This document shows, in pieces, positions 9,148 to 45,413 of a DNA stretch of 64,000 nt. Both the position numbers and the translations under genes were made by a program. Origin of the DNA: Thermoleophilaceae bacterium. Lineage in GTDB: Bacteria > Actinomycetota > Thermoleophilia > Solirubrobacterales > Thermoleophilaceae. Each line of letters opens with the position of its first letter. Positions within the stretch are counted from its first letter, which is position 1. The notes under the pieces were generated by a model. It did not search any database. It was not told the DNA's origin and saw only the letters and a program-made list of their open reading frames with translations. The stretch covers positions 124,001-188,000 of the forward strand of contig JBBDYQ010000015.1 of assembly GCA_040901445.1 (NCBI GenBank), given 5' to 3'.

Positions 9148-9153
9148 ACTCTA
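9148..9153 (-). promoter_or_regulatory. -10-like box
   Basis: TAGAGT on the minus strand, ending 10 nt before the ATG at 9137. It includes the TAG stop codon of asnB. Confidence 0.4.
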
Positions 9154-10977
9154 CGGGGCGGCCGGCACGGCGGCCCCGCGCAGCCACAGCTCGAGGTTGA
9201 GCGCGCGCCAGACGGCGTTGTGGTCGCGCCAGGCGCCGGCCCGGACGTCCGCCTCCACAGCCGCGCGGTCCAGCCAGCGAGCGGACCGCGTGCCCGCACC
9301 GTCCAGCAGCAGCTCCCCCACGAGCGCGATCGCGGCGGGCTCGTGCAGCCAGCGGCGCTCCGGCGTCTCGAACCCCACCTTGTCCCGGCGCTCCAGCACC
9401 TCGTCCGGCACCACCCCGCGCGCCGCGTCGCGGAGCACCGCCTTGCGCGCGCCGCCGCGGTAGAGGAACTCCGGCGGCAGCGACAGCGCGAGCTCGGCCA
9501 GCCGACGGTCGAGGTAGGGCAGCCGCACCTCGCGCGAGTGGGCCATCGAGTTGCGGTCGGCGTAGCGCAGCAGCATGGGCATGCTCGTGTGGAAGGCCTG
9601 GCGCGAGAGCTCGCGCACCAGCGGGCCGCGCCCGCGGGCGAAGTCCGGCGCATCCACAGTGGTCGTGGCCGCCTCACGCGCCACCCGCGCCTCGGCGTAC
9701 GGCGACGCGGCGCGCAGCCGGTGGCGCCGCGCCACCGCGGCCGGCAGGCGCTCCGCGCCGGCCGCCAGCAGCAGCGCGCGGCGCTCGCCTGTCGTGCCGC
9801 GCGCCAGGGTGCGGAGCGCCGCGCCCGGCCCGGCGGCCCGCAGCGCCCAGCCCTCGCTGCCCACGTAGCCGCCGAACAGCTCGTCGGCGCCCTGGCCGTC
9901 CAGCAGCACGGTGACGCCCGCCTCGCGCGCGGCGCGCATCACGCGCCACTGCGCGTAGATGCTCGAGGTCACCACCGGCTCGCCGTGCGCGGACACCAGC
10001 GCGTCGAGGTCGGCCAGCAGGTCCGCCCCCGTGGGCTCCACCCCGTGGTGCTCCACCACGCCCGCCGCCTGCGCGGCCGCGCTCGCGTAACGCCATTCGT
10101 CGCGCTCGAAGCCGGGGAAGCGGGCGGTGAACGCGTGACGGCGGTGGTCGCCGGCGATCTGCGCGGACAGGCCCACGACGGCCGAGGAGTCCACGCCGCC
10201 GCTCAGCGACGTGCCCACGGGGACGTCGGAGCGCAGGCGCAGGCGCACCGAGTCGAGCAGGAGCTCGCGCACGCGCTCGACGGCGTCCTCGTAGCGGGCG
10301 GGCGCCTCCACCGCGCGGGGCGCCCACCAGCGCCTCAGTTCGGTGCGGCCCTCGCGCACGCGCAGAACATGTGCGGCCGGCACCTGACGGATGCCTGCGA
10401 AGAACGTCTCCTCGACGGCCGGCATGAGGCCCCGCGCGAGGTATGGGCCGAGCGCCTCCTCGCGCGGGCCTGCAAGCGCCGGCTCTGCGTCGATCAGCGC
10501 GCGGACATCGGACGCGAACAGCAGCCGCTCGCCCGTCTGCGCCCAGTGCAGCGGCTTCTCGCCGAAGGCGTCCCGCGCAAGCGTGAGCGTGCGCTCACCG
10601 TCGTCCCAGACCGCGAACGCGAACATCCCGTTGAGGCGGTCGAGCGCACCCTCCCCCCACTCCGCCCAGGCGTGCAGCAGCACCTCGGCGTCGCCCTCGG
10701 TGCGGAACTCGTGGCCTGCCGCGCACAGCTCCTTGCGCAGCTCCCTGTAGTTGTAGATCTCCCCGTTGAACACCAGGTGCAGCGGGCCCAGGTGCATCGG
10801 CTGGTCCGAGCGCTCGTCGAGGTCGATGATCGCCAGCCGGGTGTGCGCGAACCCCACCTGCCCGTCCCTCCAGACGCCCTTCCCGTCGGGCCCACGATGC
10901 GCCATGAGGCCCGCCATCCGCTCGAGGAGCGCGATGTCCGGCGGCGAGCCGCCGGCGGTGCCGCCGATGCCGCACAT
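9151..10977 (-). CDS. asnB: Glutamine-dependent amidotransferase, asparagine synthetase B type
   Basis: 608 aa. The start is fixed by MCGIGG: Cys2 becomes the N-terminal nucleophile of the class II glutaminase. The glutaminase domain has AHRGPDGKG and FNGEIYNYRELRKEL; the synthetase domain has the PP-loop SLSGGVDSSAVVG (about 255-267) and LLDGQGADELFGGY. Classical AsnB makes asparagine from aspartate, glutamine and ATP. Relatives inside polysaccharide loci (the WbpS type) amidate sugar uronic acids, which fits the uronate dehydrogenase at 18199, but sequence alone does not decide. An in-frame upstream extension through the palindromic element is rejected. TACCCT lies 7 nt before the ATG. Confidence 0.93.
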   Translation of the reverse strand: MCGIGGTAGGSPPDIALLERMAGLMAHRGPDGKGVWRDGQVGFAHTRLAIIDLDERSDQPMHLGPLHLVFNGEIYNYRELRKELCAAGHEFRTEGDAEVLLHAWAEWGEGALDRLNGMFAFAVWDDGERTLTLARDAFGEKPLHWAQTGERLLFASDVRALIDAEPALAGPREEALGPYLARGLMPAVEETFFAGIRQVPAAHVLRVREGRTELRRWWAPRAVEAPARYEDAVERVRELLLDSVRLRLRSDVPVGTSLSGGVDSSAVVGLSAQIAGDHRRHAFTARFPGFERDEWRYASAAAQAAGVVEHHGVEPTGADLLADLDALVSAHGEPVVTSSIYAQWRVMRAAREAGVTVLLDGQGADELFGGYVGSEGWALRAAGPGAALRTLARGTTGERRALLLAAGAERLPAAVARRHRLRAASPYAEARVAREAATTTVDAPDFARGRGPLVRELSRQAFHTSMPMLLRYADRNSMAHSREVRLPYLDRRLAELALSLPPEFLYRGGARKAVLRDAARGVVPDEVLERRDKVGFETPERRWLHEPAAIALVGELLLDGAGTRSARWLDRAAVEADVRAGAWRDHNAVWRALNLELWLRGAAVPAAP

Positions 10978-11016: not shown

Positions 11017-11089
11017 GGGATTGTGCGCAACTCGTGTGCGTGGGAGGCACACGAGTTGCGCCACGCGCAACTTTGTTGCGCACAATCCC
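11017..11089 (-). repeat. Palindromic element family 1, copy 1 (73 bp)
   Basis: Outer arms GGGATTGTGCGCAAC (11017-11031) and GTTGCGCACAATCCC (11075-11089) are perfect 15-bp inverted repeats. A second perfect 15-bp pair, GCGCAACTCGTGTGC (11025-11039) with GCACACGAGTTGCGC (11047-11061), overlaps the first, and GCGCAAC-TTT-GTTGCGC (11065-11081) is a third hairpin, so several folds exclude one another. The core TGTGCGTGGGAGGCA recurs, inverted, in the copy at 36691-36763. It fills the middle of the longest gene-free gap (10978-11169), 39 bp before the asnB start. I see no gene in the rest of the gap. Confidence 0.85.
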
Positions 11090-11169: not shown

Positions 11170-12528
11170 CTATGCCGAGCGTCGCAGCCGCTCGCGGACG
11201 AGCCGCGCCACGCGCCGGTAGTCGTCCAGCTCCGAGCGCCCCGGCACCAGCAGCGGCGCCACCCGCAGGCCGGTGACGCGCCGGAAGTAGAACGCGCTCA
11301 GCAGGAAGCTCAGTCCGTACGAGATGCTCGACGCCAGGGCCGCGCCGGTGGCCTCCATAGACGGAACGAGCAGCACGTAGAGCAGGATCGTCGGCGGGGT
11401 TGCGATCAGCGCCGTGTAGAGCGAGTAGATCGGGAACCCGCGCCCGACGGTGGTGGCCGAGAGGACGTTGGCGATCCCGATCAGGGAGACGCCTGGCAGC
11501 AGGATCAGGCCGAGCTCGATGGCGGGGCGGAACTCTGCCCCGTACACCACCTCCACCAGCGCCACGAGACCACCGGCCAGCAGCAGCGCGGACACGAGGG
11601 TGATCACCGCCACGTGGCGCAGGCTCTTCTCCTCCACCATCGCGCGCTGCTCCTCATCACCGGTGCCCGTCAGTGCGGCCACGCGCGGGAAGACGACGGC
11701 CGAGAGCGCCGAGGGCAGCAACCACATCGCGCTCGTGACGGAGATGGCCACGGCGTAATGGCCGACCTTCGCCTGGGCCGCCACGGCGTTGAGGATGAAG
11801 AGGTCGAGCCGGTAGTTGAGGAACTGGAGCGCGTGCGCCGAGTAGCTCTTCACCCCGAAGGAGACCGCCTCGCGCATGGAGGCGAGCCCCGGCTGCGGCG
11901 GCACGTCGTCGGGCGGCAGCCGGCGGCGGTTCCAGACGAGCATCGCCACCGCGGCCACCGCGTGCGAGGCGGCCAGGCCGGCGATGGCGCCGTCGAGCCC
12001 GAATGCCGCCGCGAGCCCCGCGACGCCCGCCAGTGCGACGGCGGACTGCAGCGCGGGCGCGGTCACGTAGCGCTCGTACGCGTCCACCGCCAGTGCGATG
12101 TAGGACGAGAACAGCCACGACAGCGCGAACGGGAGCCCGGCGCACACCACGAGCACGAGCGTCGTGCTCACGCCGTCGAACGCGGCCGGGATCAGGGCGC
12201 GGGCGAGCAGGCCGATCCCCATCCCCGCGAGCCCGAGCACGAGCGCCGCCGCCTGGGCCTGCGCGAACGCCGCGCGCGCGCCCCAGCGGCGGGAGCTGAT
12301 CAGCCAGGTGACCCCGCTCTCGAGCCCGAGCGTCGAGACCGTCATGAGCATCACGAACAGCGACAGCGCCACCGTGAACGCCGCGGTGCCCTCCGGGCCG
12401 AGCAGGCGGGCCACGGCAACGGTGGCGAGCGCGCCCGTGAGCGCCACGGTGACCTGGCTCGCGGCCGTCATCACCGCGCCGCCGGTGATCGGCCGCGGCT
12501 GAGCGGCGCTTGGGTCCTCGGCGGCCAT
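11170..12528 (-). CDS. wzx: Oligosaccharide flippase, Wzx/MATE-like
   Basis: 452 aa from the ATG at 12528, with 12 or more hydrophobic segments across the whole length and the flippase-type opening segment ITGGAVMTAASQVTVALTGA followed by ARLLGPEGTAAFTVAL. These MOP-superfamily proteins move undecaprenyl-linked repeat units across the cytoplasmic membrane. With the Wzy-type polymerase at 29221 it would form a Wzx/Wzy route. The C-terminus is Arg-rich and cytosolic. The start faces the acyltransferase gene across only 30 bp. Confidence 0.9.
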   Translation of the reverse strand: MAAEDPSAAQPRPITGGAVMTAASQVTVALTGALATVAVARLLGPEGTAAFTVALSLFVMLMTVSTLGLESGVTWLISSRRWGARAAFAQAQAAALVLGLAGMGIGLLARALIPAAFDGVSTTLVLVVCAGLPFALSWLFSSYIALAVDAYERYVTAPALQSAVALAGVAGLAAAFGLDGAIAGLAASHAVAAVAMLVWNRRRLPPDDVPPQPGLASMREAVSFGVKSYSAHALQFLNYRLDLFILNAVAAQAKVGHYAVAISVTSAMWLLPSALSAVVFPRVAALTGTGDEEQRAMVEEKSLRHVAVITLVSALLLAGGLVALVEVVYGAEFRPAIELGLILLPGVSLIGIANVLSATTVGRGFPIYSLYTALIATPPTILLYVLLVPSMEATGAALASSISYGLSFLLSAFYFRRVTGLRVAPLLVPGRSELDDYRRVARLVRERLRRSA

Positions 12529-25481: not shown

Positions 25482-26324
25482 GCGGCCTGCCCGCGCCCGA
25501 GACCTTCCTCTCGGGCGAGACCGGCCATGTGGGCGGGCTCCGCCGCACAGCGCTCCGGCGCGGCGCCGACGCGCTCCTCGACATCCGCCTGGCGGCGGCG
25601 CGCCCCCCCCACCACCCCCACGCGGCGGCCGCCCCCCCCCCCCCCCCCCCCCCCGCCCCCCCCCCCCCTCGACCGCCTGGCGGCGGACGCGCCCCGGCGC
25701 TCCGTGCTCGCCGCGTGCGTGCACCGGCCGGGCGCCCAGCCCCCGCCGCTCACGTCCGAGCGCCACGACCTGCGCATGGTCACGGGCTCCACGGCCGAGC
25801 TCACGGGCGGCAAGTTCGAGAACGTCGGCACGCTGCTGGGAGACTCTCCGGACGCCGACTGGACGCTCGTGGTGGACGACGACGTGGAGCTGCCGGGGCA
25901 CTTCCTCGACCGCTTCCTGGGCGTCTGCGAGCACCTGGGCCTGGCCCTCGCCCAGCCCGCCCAGACGCTGGCCAGCCACGCGGCCTGGCCCGTCACGCGC
26001 CGCCGCGGCGGCGTGCTGGCCCGTGAGACCCGTTTCGTGGAGATCGGCCCCGTGACCGCGTTCCGCCGCGACGTGGCCGAGGCGCTGATGCCCTTTCCCG
26101 CCCTGCGCTACGGCTGGGGACTCGACCTGCACTGGTCCGCCGTCGCGGCGCGGCGGGGCTGGTGCCTGGGGATCGTGGACGCCACGCCGGTGCGCCACGA
26201 GGGCGCGCCGGTGGCCAGCAGCTACCCCGCCGCCGAGGCGATCGAGGAGGCGCGGAGGTTCCTCGCCGAGCGCCCGCACGTGACGGCTGACCAGGCGGGC
26301 GAGACGGTGGCGGTGCACCGGTGA
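25478..26324 (+). pseudogene. GT2-like glycosyltransferase, frame broken at a poly-C tract
   Basis: Starts at a GTG overlapping the previous stop (GTGA) and reads VSGLPAPETFLSGETGHVGG and about 40 more residues before running into a C-rich tract at 25602-25668. The rest of a plausible protein continues in another frame: PDADWTLVVDDDVELPGHFL holds the GT2 DDD metal site, and YGWGLDLHWSAVAARRGW the acceptor region, to the stop at 26322-26324. One C fewer or two more would join the frames. Either a sequencing or assembly error in the homopolymer or a real off-phase gene. The expected protein is about 281 aa. The neighbours are intact. Confidence 0.7.
25602..25668 (+). repeat. Poly-C rich tract inside a glycosyltransferase gene
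   Basis: Eight Cs at 25603-25610, then C23 at 25632-25654, one G, and C13 at 25656-25668. No other homopolymer of this size is visible in the window. It is the point where the reading frame of the surrounding gene changes. Confidence 0.85.
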
Positions 26325-35953: not shown

Positions 35954-36330
35954 GCGCCGGGCTCACGATCGGCGAGGTTGCGGCCCGCGCCGGCCTCGCC
36001 ACCTCCGCCATCCGCTACTACGAGCGGATCGGGTTGCTGCCCGAGACCGAGCGCGTGTCCGGGCGCCGCCACTACGACGACGAGGTGCTGGAGCGCCTGG
36101 CGGTCATCGCCACGGCGCAGCGCGCCGGGCTGTCCCTCGAGGAGGCACGCGAGTTGCTGGACGGCGTGGACGCCGGGGAGCCCGCCGGAGAGCGGCTCCA
36201 GGCGCTGGCGCAGCGCAAGCTGCCGGAGGTCGAGGCGCTCATCGCGCGCGCGCAGGCGGTGCGCGGCTGGCTCCTGGCGGCGGCCGACTGCCGCTGCCCC
36301 ACCCTCGACGACTGCCCTCTGTTCGAGTGA
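35938..36330 (+). CDS. MerR-family transcriptional regulator
   Basis: 130 aa from a GTG. The winged-helix DNA-binding part is [20 protein letters not shown] (9-28), then [15 protein letters not shown]; a coiled helix about 75-110 makes the dimer. The C-terminal end has [15 protein letters not shown]: three Cys resembling the SoxR iron-sulphur loop but lacking its first Cys, so it probably binds a metal ion or thiol reagent rather than a [2Fe-2S] cluster. It should control the divergent small Cys gene and its own operon with the YnfA-like gene (GTGA overlap). Confidence 0.9.
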
Positions 36331-36653
36331 TCCCCCAGTCCATCGGCCTCTTCGCGCTCGCCGCGGTGGCCGAGATCGGCGGCGCCTGGCTCGTCTGGCA
36401 GGGAGTGCGCGAGGGCCGCGGCGCGTGGCTGGCCGTGGTGGGCGGGCTGGCGCTGGTGGCCTACGGCCTCGTGGCCACCCTCCAGCCCGACAACAACTTC
36501 GGGCGGGTACTCGCCGCGTACGGAGGCGTGTTCGTGGCGGGCTCGCTGCTGTGGGGCACCCTCTTCGACGGCTTCCGCCCCGACCGCTGGGACCTCATCG
36601 GCGCCGGCATCTGCCTGGCGGGCGTGGCCGTGATCATGTACCCGCCGCGCTGA
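36327..36653 (+). CDS. ynfA: YnfA/UPF0060 family inner-membrane protein
   Basis: 108 aa, four membrane spans: [20 protein letters not shown], then [39 protein letters not shown] and the last around [16 protein letters not shown]. The acidic residue in the first span (AEIGGAW) and the DGFRPDRWD loop are family hallmarks. YnfA is related to small multidrug exporters; its substrate is not established. Co-translated with the MerR regulator (GTGA), so it is probably part of the same stress response. Confidence 0.92.
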
Positions 36654-36690: not shown

Positions 36691-36763
36691 GGGATTGTGC
36701 GCAACTCCGTTGCCTCCCACGCACATCGTGTGCTTCCCACGCAGTTCTTGTGCGCACAATCCC
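36691..36763 (+). repeat. Palindromic element family 1, copy 2 (73 bp)
   Basis: Arms GGGATTGTGCGCA (36691-36703) and TGCGCACAATCCC (36751-36763) are perfect inverted repeats; the right arm is part of the 12-bp palindrome TTGTGCGCACAA. The centre holds two TCCCACGCA units and a GCACA-TCG-TGTGC hairpin. Reversed, it shares TGTGCGTGGGAGGCA and GAGTTGCGC with copy 1. The bases just outside the left arm (CCCGCTG) are also the same in both copies. It ends 28 bp before the glycosyltransferase ATG at 36792; nothing else is visible in the 36654-36791 gap. Confidence 0.85.
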
Positions 36764-36791: not shown

Positions 36792-37865
36792 ATGTCCGCG
36801 CGCGTCCTCTGCGTCACCCAGGCGGCCGAGCTCGGCGGCGCCGAGTACGCCCTGCTGCGGATCGCCAGGCGGCTGCCGGGCCGCGGATTCGAGATCGAGG
36901 CGACCGCGCCCGGCAGGGGCGCGACCGAGGAAGCCTTCCGCGCCGCGGGCTTCCCGGTGCACCGGCTGGCGGTCGGTCCGCTGCGGGCGGGCGGCTGGCC
37001 GCGGGCGCTGCTCGAGCTGCCGCGTGGGCGTGCGCTCGCGCGGCGCACGCAGCCGGACATCGTCTACCTCAACGGCACCGTGGCGCAGCGGCTGGCGCCC
37101 GCGCTCGCCGGCCGCACGCTCGTGCCCCACCTGCACGACCTGCTCGAGGCCGTCCCCCGCCCGTGGCGCAGCCGCCGCTTCTGGGACTCCGTGCCGGTGG
37201 TGCTGTGCGCGTCCGGCGCGGTGGCGGAGAGGGCGGAGGAGCTCGGCGCGCCGCCGGAGCGCCTGCGCACGGTGTTCTGCCCGATCGAGCCGGCCGAACC
37301 CGCGCCGCGGCCCGACTGGCGCAACGGCGAGGGGCCGGTCGTCGGCTTCGTGGGCCGCGTGGAGCCGCGGAAGGGCGTCCTCGACCTGCTGCGCGCCGCG
37401 CCCGTCCTGCTCGAGCGGCGCCCGGACGCCCGGATCGTGATCGTCGGCGACGACGAGCTGGGCGCGTCGCGGGGCTACCGCGACGAGGCGCGCGCCCTCG
37501 CGAGCGGAATCGGCGAGCGCGTGCTGCTCACCGGCGCGGTGCCCGAGGCCAACCGGCTGATGGCGTGGTTCGACGTGCTCGCGGTGCCGTCGCTGGTGGA
37601 GCCGTTCGGCACCGTGGCCGCGGAGGCGCTCGCCGCCGGAACCCCGGTGGTGGCCACGCGCTCGGGCGGGATGGCGGAGTACGTGGTGGAAGGCCGCAAC
37701 GGAGCGCTCGTGGATCCCGGCGACCCGCCGGGGCTCGCGGGCGCGCTCGACCGCGTGCTGGCCGACGCCGAGGCCCTGGGCGCAACCGGGCGCGAGGACG
37801 CGGCCCGCTTCGCGAGCGACCGGGTGGCCTCGGCGGTCGCCGACGCGCTCGGGGAGGCGCTCTGA
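36792..37865 (+). CDS. Glycosyltransferase family 4
   Basis: 357 aa. VLCVTQAAELGGAEYALLRI is the N-domain start with the GGAE loop; DIVYLNGTVAQRLAPALAG is in the acceptor part. Donor site: VGFVGRVEPRKGVLDLLRAA and PSLVEPFGTVAAEALAAG, where E-P-F-G-x4-E gives the E-x7-E motif. First gene after the palindromic element, with a TGATG overlap to the next transferase. Cytosolic; substrates unknown. Confidence 0.9.
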   Translation: MSARVLCVTQAAELGGAEYALLRIARRLPGRGFEIEATAPGRGATEEAFRAAGFPVHRLAVGPLRAGGWPRALLELPRGRALARRTQPDIVYLNGTVAQRLAPALAGRTLVPHLHDLLEAVPRPWRSRRFWDSVPVVLCASGAVAERAEELGAPPERLRTVFCPIEPAEPAPRPDWRNGEGPVVGFVGRVEPRKGVLDLLRAAPVLLERRPDARIVIVGDDELGASRGYRDEARALASGIGERVLLTGAVPEANRLMAWFDVLAVPSLVEPFGTVAAEALAAGTPVVATRSGGMAEYVVEGRNGALVDPGDPPGLAGALDRVLADAEALGATGREDAARFASDRVASAVADALGEAL

Positions 37866-43452: not shown

Positions 43453-45413
43453 GCGTGCGGGCACCCGCGCGGCCGCACGACGGTGTCAGGTCGTGCAATC
43501 CAGCGGACGCTGGATTGCACGACCTGACACCGGCTACCTTGCTCGGCTGGGCCCTGGCGCTCGCCGCCGCCGCCGTCGCCGCCCTCGCGATCGCGGACGA
43601 CGCCGGCGTGGCCGGCCCTGCCGCGCTGCCCGACGTGGCGCGCGCGCTGGCCGCTTCGGTGGCCGTGCTCGGCGTCTGCGGCTTCCCGCTCGCGCGGCTG
43701 CTCGTGCCCGAGTCGATCGCCGCCTGGCGGCCGCTGCTCGTGCTCCCGCTCGGCGCCGTGGGCTGCGCACTCGCGCTCACGCTGCTCGGCTTCGCCCTGG
43801 TGCCGTTCGGCGTGTCGCTGCCGCTCGTGCTCGCCGCGGGAATCGTGGGCTGCGTGCTCACGGCGCGGCGGCCGGTCACGGGCTCGCCCGCCCCCGCCCC
43901 GCACCTGCTCGGCCTGGCCGCCGTCGGCCTGCTGATCGTGGCCGTCGCGCTCGTGCCCAGCTTCCGCTCCGGCCTGGCCACCGTCACCGGCTTCGGCTCC
44001 GACGCCCACATGGCCGCGGGGACCGCCTTCTTCCTCCAGCACGAGCACCCCACCGGCCTCGACACCGCGCTGCCGATCGACGAGGTCACACCCGCCTGGC
44101 GCTCGAAGTACCCGATCTACTACGCGCTCGGAGCCGTCTCGACCGTCGCCGGGCTGGAGACCTGGGAGACGCTGATGACCTTCGGCGCGGTGATGCTGGC
44201 GCTCGCCGGCGCGGGCTTCTTCCTGTTCGCGCACCGCACGTTCCGCGCGGGCGTGGGCGTGGCCGCGGTGGCGGCGGCGGTGGCCATCCTCGACCAGCGC
44301 GTGCTCCACCTGCCGATGCACCCGTACTACAACCAGCTCTGGGGCCTGTTCACATTGCCGTTCTCCCTGGTGTTCGCGCACCTGTGGTTCGAGGAGCGAT
44401 CGCGGCAGATGCTCGCCCTGCTCGTGCTGTTCACGCTGATGGGGGCGCTGGCCTACCCGCTCATGCTGCCCTTCCCGGGAGTGGTCATCGCCGGTGCGTG
44501 GGCGCTGGAGCAGCGCCGCCGCGGCGAGCGCGTGCTCCCGCGGATCCGCGGGCGGCGCCCGCGCTGGTGGATGGTGCCGGTGGGCATCCTGCTCGCCGTC
44601 CCGATCTTCGGCGTGCTGGAGAAGATCGGGCAGGCCGTCGCGCTGCTAGGCAACCTCGACTCCGCGCTCGAGGACTGGCAGGGTGACCTGTCCTTCCACC
44701 CCCCGGTGGGCGAGTTCCTCGCGGTGGCGGACGTGCCGGGACGTACCGCGCTCGTGGTGCTCGTCTGCCTGCTGGCGATCGCCGGCGTCCGGCGCATGCC
44801 CCGCCGGGTGGGACTGCCGCTGCTGGTCACGCTCGGCCTCGCCGGCATGGCGGGCGCCCTGTTCGGCGTGCTGAAGGACGGCCAGTACCTCTACTTCAAG
44901 ATCCTCGCCTTTGCCGGGCCGCTGATCGTGGTGGCGGCAGTCGTGGCGGTGGGATCGCTGCGCGGACGGCTGCGACCGCTGGCGGTCGCCGGCCTCGTCC
45001 TCTTCTCCGCCTCCGCGCTCCTCGGCGCGCGCGACGAGATCGAGCTCTCGTTCGACCAGCTCACCCCGCAGACCATCGAGCTGGGCGAGTGGGCGGAACG
45101 CCTCCCCCCGGGGGCGAGCATCCGCCTGGACACGCCGCCACCCGCCCAGCTGTGGGAGGCCTACATCCTCAGCGGCCGCCCGCTCGGCTCCCGCAGGCCC
45201 AACCCCCACTACCCGCACGTGCCGCGCAGCGCCGGGGCCGACTACGCGATCGACTGGAGGCGCCGCCCGGTCCCCGCGGACCGCGCCGGCCCTCCGCTGC
45301 TCACCAACTCGCGCTACCGCCTCTGGAAGCTCGACGGCAGCGGCGGCGAGGACACAACCTCCCGGCGGCAGTTCAGCGGCGGCGCGCTGGGCTCGCTGGC
45401 CGACCCGGGCTGA
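43449..45413 (+). CDS. Large polytopic membrane protein, GT-C-like, with an in-frame palindrome
   Basis: 654 aa from the ATG that overlaps the WecG stop (ATGA). Residues 11-29 are encoded by a perfect palindrome (43481-43532); the first membrane span begins just after it at ATLLGWALALAAAAV. About twelve to fourteen spans follow, with the polar loop VTGFGSDAHMAAGTAFF after the fourth and a YPIYYALG motif, then a C-terminal external domain of about 100 residues. The order matches the partial gene at 1-1444. Likely a polyprenyl-sugar-using transferase; not proven. A TTG at 43539, just after the palindrome, is an alternative start. Confidence 0.78.
   Translation: MSVRAPARPHDGVRSCNPADAGLHDLTPATLLGWALALAAAAVAALAIADDAGVAGPAALPDVARALAASVAVLGVCGFPLARLLVPESIAAWRPLLVLPLGAVGCALALTLLGFALVPFGVSLPLVLAAGIVGCVLTARRPVTGSPAPAPHLLGLAAVGLLIVAVALVPSFRSGLATVTGFGSDAHMAAGTAFFLQHEHPTGLDTALPIDEVTPAWRSKYPIYYALGAVSTVAGLETWETLMTFGAVMLALAGAGFFLFAHRTFRAGVGVAAVAAAVAILDQRVLHLPMHPYYNQLWGLFTLPFSLVFAHLWFEERSRQMLALLVLFTLMGALAYPLMLPFPGVVIAGAWALEQRRRGERVLPRIRGRRPRWWMVPVGILLAVPIFGVLEKIGQAVALLGNLDSALEDWQGDLSFHPPVGEFLAVADVPGRTALVVLVCLLAIAGVRRMPRRVGLPLLVTLGLAGMAGALFGVLKDGQYLYFKILAFAGPLIVVAAVVAVGSLRGRLRPLAVAGLVLFSASALLGARDEIELSFDQLTPQTIELGEWAERLPPGASIRLDTPPPAQLWEAYILSGRPLGSRRPNPHYPHVPRSAGADYAIDWRRRPVPADRAGPPLLTNSRYRLWKLDGSGGEDTTSRRQFSGGALGSLADPG
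43481..43532. repeat. Palindromic element family 3, 24-bp perfect arms inside a gene
   Basis: Left arm 43481-43504 and right arm 43509-43532 are exact reverse complements of 24 bases around the loop GGAC. The arm begins CGGTGTCAGGTCGTGCAATC. It is read in frame as part of the N-terminus of the membrane protein without introducing a stop. Confidence 0.85.

Follow-up and report, generated by a model that had tools for sequence, protein, structure and literature searches.

Palindrome-bounded arrays of 20-bp-spaced dyads linked to a small XRE regulator gene in Thermoleophilaceae

Repressors of the Cro/CI fold sit side by side on tandem operators. In the lambda OR region, the C-boxes of C proteins, and the operators of SinR and DdrO, a small helix-turn-helix (HTH) protein of this fold (XRE) is encoded by the adjacent gene, several short dyads lie at a regular helix-related spacing, and cooperative autoregulation is expected. 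The element described here shares these features but differs in that its arrays are bounded by inverted arms of about 10-20 bp with a lineage-specific sequence, and in that up to seven further arrays occupy unrelated loci, also between convergent genes. Moreover, no restriction-modification or prophage genes were seen beside the element.

Two classes of dispersed repeats are also comparable. REPIN and REP sequences with RAYT (PMC3116915, PMC3733652) are likewise short dispersed intergenic palindromes of lineage-specific sequence, with one copy beside a single partner gene; in contrast, the partner of the present element is an HTH protein without a transposase, the genome lacks Y1_Tnp, the arm ends lack the GTAG/CGTC tag, the copies are few, and each contains an internal 20-bp dyad array. 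MITEs share the perfect terminal inverted repeats and are similarly short, non-coding, and dispersed, whereas in the present element no target-site duplication was seen, a parent transposon with the same ends is absent, and the length and spacing are constant despite a divergent interior.

Layout and genomic setting of the element

The genome carrying the element (3.54 Mb, 25 contigs) contains five copies, located on contigs C2, C10, C15 (two copies, designated C15a and C15b), and C17. Both C15 copies lie in the window, that is, the whole 64,000-nucleotide stretch of DNA analyzed, and are exactly 73 bp long with identical termini (GGGATTGTGCGCA...TGCGCACAATCCC). All four intact copies exhibit the same arrangement, arm(10)-dyad(13)-linker(7)-dyad(13)-linker(7)-dyad(13)-arm(10), in which the right arm is the inverse of the left arm, the three 13-bp dyads are of the form GCA-N7-TGC and follow one another in 20-bp steps, and the 7-bp linkers are G-rich. 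The features of the window are as follows.

36691..36763, no strand: C15b, whole element, a three-dyad array with inverted arms (copy comparison)
36691..36700, plus strand: C15b left arm, GGGATTGTGC, identical in all copies
36701..36713, no strand: C15b dyad 1, GCAACTCCGTTGC
36714..36720, minus strand: C15b linker, GTGGGAG on the minus strand
36721..36733, no strand: C15b dyad 2, GCACATCGTGTGC
36734..36740, minus strand: C15b linker, GTGGGAA on the minus strand
36741..36753, no strand: C15b dyad 3, GCAGTTCTTGTGC
36754..36763, minus strand: C15b right arm, GCACAATCCC, inverse of the left arm
36327..36653, plus strand: YnfA/UPF0060 membrane protein gene upstream of C15b (Pfam PF02694)
36792..37865, plus strand: GT4 glycosyltransferase gene downstream of C15b (Pfam PF13692/PF00534)
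11017..11089, no strand: C15a, whole element, 73 bp, with dyads at 11027-11039, 11047-11059, and 11067-11079
9151..10977, minus strand: asnB-type asparagine synthase gene, start codon 39 bp from C15a (Pfam PF00733)
11170..12471, minus strand: polysaccharide flippase-type gene, ending 80 bp from C15a (Pfam PF13440)

The GCA and TGC triplets all fall on a 10-bp grid, with a single substitution, in C2. Invariance was observed at 11 of the 12 internal GCA/TGC positions compared with 8 of 35 other positions (Fisher p=4e-5), and the 10-bp rhythm of internal conservation was matched in 3 of 50000 permutations. Identity between the copies was 100% in the arms, 97% at the dyad ends, 67% in the linkers (GTGGGAG-like), and about 40% in the dyad centres. 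A search for GGGATTGTGCGCAA with at most one mismatch returned 11 matches in the 3.54 Mb, against 0 for a reversed-pattern control; 10 were arms of the five elements, and the remaining one, with one mismatch and no partner arm, apparently lies in coding DNA. At other genomic sites, single TGCGTGGGAGGCA-like matches were set aside, their surroundings containing no array. Judged from the copies, ends and spacing that stay perfect while the interior drifts fit a protein-binding array and are unlike recent or decaying transposon copies. Because the arms are identical while the dyad centres drift, the arms of this genome are probably recognized in trans rather than homogenized by copying.

These results bear on an earlier sequence-only reading, which had described C15b as a second copy of equal length and termini, ending 28 bp before its start codon, with C15a ending 39 bp before that of asnB. 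Both statements were confirmed (ATG at 36792 and asnB ATG at 10977). The reported core, TGTGCGTGGGAGGCA, is half a dyad, a linker, and another half dyad. The claim that C15b carries two GCGTGGGA(A/G)GCA units and C15a only one was correct for C15b, in which both units have the same orientation; C15a has one unit plus a reversed variant, and the difference is one of linker orientation. The CCCGCTG proposed as a shared extension outside the arm is common only to both window copies and C10, and CTG just outside the left arm is general.

The central argument of that reading was that both copies point the same way and lie upstream of their genes. C15a lies between the flippase gene and asnB, and C15b between ynfA and the glycosyltransferase gene. 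The C10 copy separates divergent ALDH and XRE regulator genes, and the C17 copy lies between glycosyltransferase and LysR genes, its linker opposite in sense to those of the window copies. The C2 copy is flanked by a SnoaL gene on the plus strand and, on the minus strand, a gene for which Pfam gave no meaningful match; the pair is apparently convergent, with C2 downstream of both, although the composition-based call at this site conflicted with the Pfam-supported gene and the latter was used. Gene orientations throughout are ORF calls by codon composition, and Pfam backs only part of the neighbours. Since linker orientation varies with respect to the downstream gene, the earlier argument fails; the genome-wide list of copies largely corresponds to the pattern, random orientation or mostly downstream placement, that the reading itself had named as contrary evidence. 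In relatives, too, several arrays lie between convergent genes (supported by Pfam matches for both flanking genes at G022:C9 and G015:C8a).

Two irregularities were noted at the copies outside the window. Right beside the C2 element, a 30-bp unit is repeated about six times in tandem (L012 7066-7256). The C17 copy (L015 6948-7112; G000:C17:51647-51811) is broken by poly-G/poly-C and 10 N, an assembly artefact for which the hairpin is a possible cause.

Arrays and XRE genes in relatives

The XRE gene (G000:C10:41692-42111) lies 80 bp from the C10 copy and encodes a protein of 140 aa with an HTH_31 domain (Pfam). The Cro/CI type of this HTH was backed by Pfam, a PDB profile, and fold matches; the predicted fold matched the DNA-binding domains of C.BclI, C.AhdI, ClgR, DdrO, SinR, and lambda repressor, with weak Foldseek E-values (best 2e-3) and a mean pLDDT of 73 for the model. 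A protein search of 31 genomes identified homologues in about half, the convincing ones being confined to the same family. Strong matches to this subfamily were likewise restricted to the family in a search of approximately 400 class genomes and approximately 400 phylum genomes, the latter set sampling the family thinly.

The exact repeat is absent from the genomes carrying XRE homologues, and on this ground the XRE gene had been considered an unrelated neighbour. A covariance model built from the four intact copies and searched over 31 family genomes overturned this view. The best foreign matches were in G010, G005, G018, and G015; in G005, G018, and G015:C19 the array immediately precedes a gene that the independent protein search had identified as encoding a homologue of the C10 XRE protein. 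Weak matches in G363:C66, G006:C148, and G010:C10 contained no recognizable array and were discarded. An array adjoins the XRE gene on C10 and in G005, G018, G015, G010, G014, G022, and G382, and more weakly in G016.

Upstream of most XRE homologues, which come from about ten genera of the one family, CAA-N5-TTG dyads follow one another at intervals of exactly 20 bp, and inverted, lineage-specific arms usually bound them. Scoring three such dyads in the upstream regions yielded 12-18 of 18 in 10 of the 11 tested, compared with maxima of 12-14 in 300 dinucleotide shuffles. Eight of the 11 regions scored above all 300 shuffles; the observed score was reached by 2/300 shuffles for G015 and 5/300 for G016, and the G006 region, with 10 of 18, was indistinguishable from its shuffles. 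The arrays that accompany the XRE genes of G006 and G016 are atypical or weak. Two XRE paralogues in G010 (78% identical; L189, L190) each have their own array, one of them with only two clear dyads. Although G005 and G018 belong to one genus and show synteny around the XRE gene, their arms differ.

A second model, consisting of the three-dyad core and built partly from XRE-adjacent arrays, identified approximately 8 arrays in G014, 5 in G022, 7 in G015, and fewer in G010, G005, and G002; several genomes carry 1-7 extra arrays at unrelated loci besides the XRE-adjacent one. The co-occurrence of arrays with the XRE gene is partly circular under this model, and the test counts dispersed arrays only (6/10 genomes with the gene vs 1/21 without, p=0.002). 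G002, which is 76% complete, has an array, and the XRE gene was not found in it. Among the gaps between dyads in the arrays of other genomes, 65/82 were exactly 20 bp and 10/82 were 12 bp, the latter at the junction of two triads; control stretches contained a single chance dyad pair.

Arm pairing was significant (p<0.005) in six genomes of five genera, and the arm sequences differ between genomes. Within a genome the arms are common to the copies, being CCTACCGACTTAG in G014, CCCCGCCGATTCG in G022, and the window arm in the present genome; those of G015 and G010 are less uniform. In G014 and G022, which belong to the same genus, arrays occupy three orthologous intergenic spots, and the arms have changed in concert. 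Neighbourhoods also recur across genera, namely enolase-divIC (g15, g16) and lysC-asd (g11, g15), although the intergenic gap is not identical. According to ORF calls, convergent genes flank about 6 of the 25 non-XRE arrays and tandem genes about 16, with no clear promoter preference; many are inside housekeeping operons (nadA-nadC, argJ-argB, tilS-hpt), and the functions of the neighbours formed no obvious regulon. The G022 arrays on C185 and C9 (L246 2495-2625, L247 2518-2645) are near-identical over approximately 130 bp, including the dyad centres, in unrelated surroundings, which suggests recent copying or gene conversion.

Candidate roles of the arrays

On the basis of these findings, the element is best explained as a multi-dimer binding platform for the small lineage-specific XRE protein, probably autoregulatory, with dispersed satellites; from the sequence evidence, we assign this reading a probability of roughly 0.6. 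Binding of the array by the XRE protein, autoregulation, and an effect on neighbouring genes are what we infer from the layout and the linkage. Weighing against the binding-platform reading are the weak Foldseek E-values, the indifference of non-XRE arrays to promoters, the lack of an obvious regulon, the G002 array, and the atypical or weak arrays of G006 and G016. Three near-palindromic pairs of half-sites, of the CAA-N5-TTG class and with the form GCA-N7-TGC in this genome, at steps of 20 bp or about two helical turns, would allow XRE dimers to line up next to each other along the same helix face. The array before the XRE gene would mediate autoregulation, and the four other copies would place the same complex near asnB, the glycosyltransferase gene, the LysR gene, and the convergent gene pair, where it might act as a repressor, obstruct RNA polymerase during elongation, or serve as a mark on the locus. 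The inverted arms are probably recognized in trans, by the XRE protein itself or by some partner, or else act as a stem. Because array positions exhibit no clear promoter preference, the satellites may serve as elongation roadblocks, in local repression, or in chromosome organization, or may simply persist in a REPIN-like manner. For C.Kpn2I, a related controller protein, a roadblock to elongation has been documented (PMC6237814). The earlier proposal of a regulatory unit thus survives in part: the XRE-gene linkage, exact 20-bp spacing, and lineage-specific arms support a protein-binding role, but not a dedicated switch controlling asnB together with a transferase.

The main rival holds that the arms are the ends of a self-copying intergenic unit, a REPIN- or MITE-like mobile palindrome, with the XRE gene either a mere host-linked neighbour or in control of its dispersal. 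Such a unit would be expected to show copies at unrelated loci, identity that stops at the arms, lineage-specific sets sharing arms, and indifference to gene orientation, and the G022 pair on C185 and C9 indicates that some copying or conversion has occurred. However, a PF01797 search of the genome for a Y1/RAYT transposase returned 0 matches, no autonomous parent with these termini was found (all but one chance arm match belonging to the five elements), and inspection by eye of the flanks of the five copies revealed no obvious target duplication. Copies that diverge strongly inside while keeping arms and spacing perfect are also unlike recent or decaying ones, and three positions were retained between species while the arms changed. 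We therefore consider this explanation unlikely. A site for chromosome organization or segregation, functionally like parS or matS, at which the XRE protein would coat arrays for nucleoid architecture rather than control adjacent genes, would account for the small number of arrays per genome (1-8), the unrelated neighbours, the lack of promoter preference, and the pairing of 13-bp palindromes with a single small DNA-binding protein gene; its patchy presence in the family, with many genera lacking both array and XRE gene, and the variation in array number from 1 to 8 render this role improbable.

The least probable reading is that the transcribed array folds through its arms into a long stem-loop acting as a terminator, stabilizer, or riboregulator. 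A 13-bp stem is present in every copy, folding energies range from -32 to -50 kcal/mol, and the arms still pair while their sequence changes, but the C15b interior folds no better than shuffles, interior structures differ among copies, and no Rfam match was found in the window; the exact 20-bp helical dyad spacing and the indifference to orientation are, moreover, DNA-like. A guide array of the TIGR or CRISPR kind was set aside on the dispersed copies, the absence of long spacers, and the lack of any noticed effector.

The binding-platform reading ties an anonymous repeat to a specific candidate partner protein and makes the system testable. The concerted arm change at conserved positions in two congeneric species would be a natural experiment on the co-evolution of a protein with many sites or, alternatively, on the spread of a palindrome without a transposase. 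More tentatively, and as a possibility we rate below even odds, an XRE protein and its arrays may have spread together in the family, with arms changing in concert, as a class of dispersed, palindrome-bounded sites of protein assembly not described before, which would act genome-wide, in architecture or in transposase-free REPIN-like dispersal, rather than as ordinary promoter operators.

Searches beyond the family and neighbouring repeats

The full-arm pattern had no match in 84,980 genomes and, among 399 class genomes, occurred in the present genome only. Searches of viral contigs and of phages and plasmids yielded chance matches or none, and a literature search revealed nothing on this element-XRE system. 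Of the 78 loci identified by an anchor-only pattern, most were unrelated tandem repeats with a 20-bp unit.

Mycobacterium talmoniae (L084, L088, L109, L121, L137, L139, and others) has many intergenic arrays in which 20-bp units (GCATCGAGTCTGCGGTGAGG) form long inverted halves; a literature search returned no account of them. They resemble the present element in having GCA-N7-TGC at 20-bp steps, an intergenic location, and a long imperfect inverted arrangement, but they lack the GGGATTGTGCGCA arms and their 20-bp units are directional. A Neisseriaceae MAG contains repeated three-unit 20-bp arrays (GCACTTCCCGTGC) adjoining TTTCAGGCAGCCTGAAA palindromes (L090 1570, L110 903, L148 63).

Elsewhere in the window, a long C-rich stretch at 25592-25695 includes a run of approximately 37 bases that are nearly all C and may be an assembly artefact. 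An inverted repeat of approximately 24 bp with a 2-bp spacer (GGTGTCAGGTCGTGCAATCCAGCG / CGCTGGATTGCACGACCTGACACC) is located at 43480-43533.
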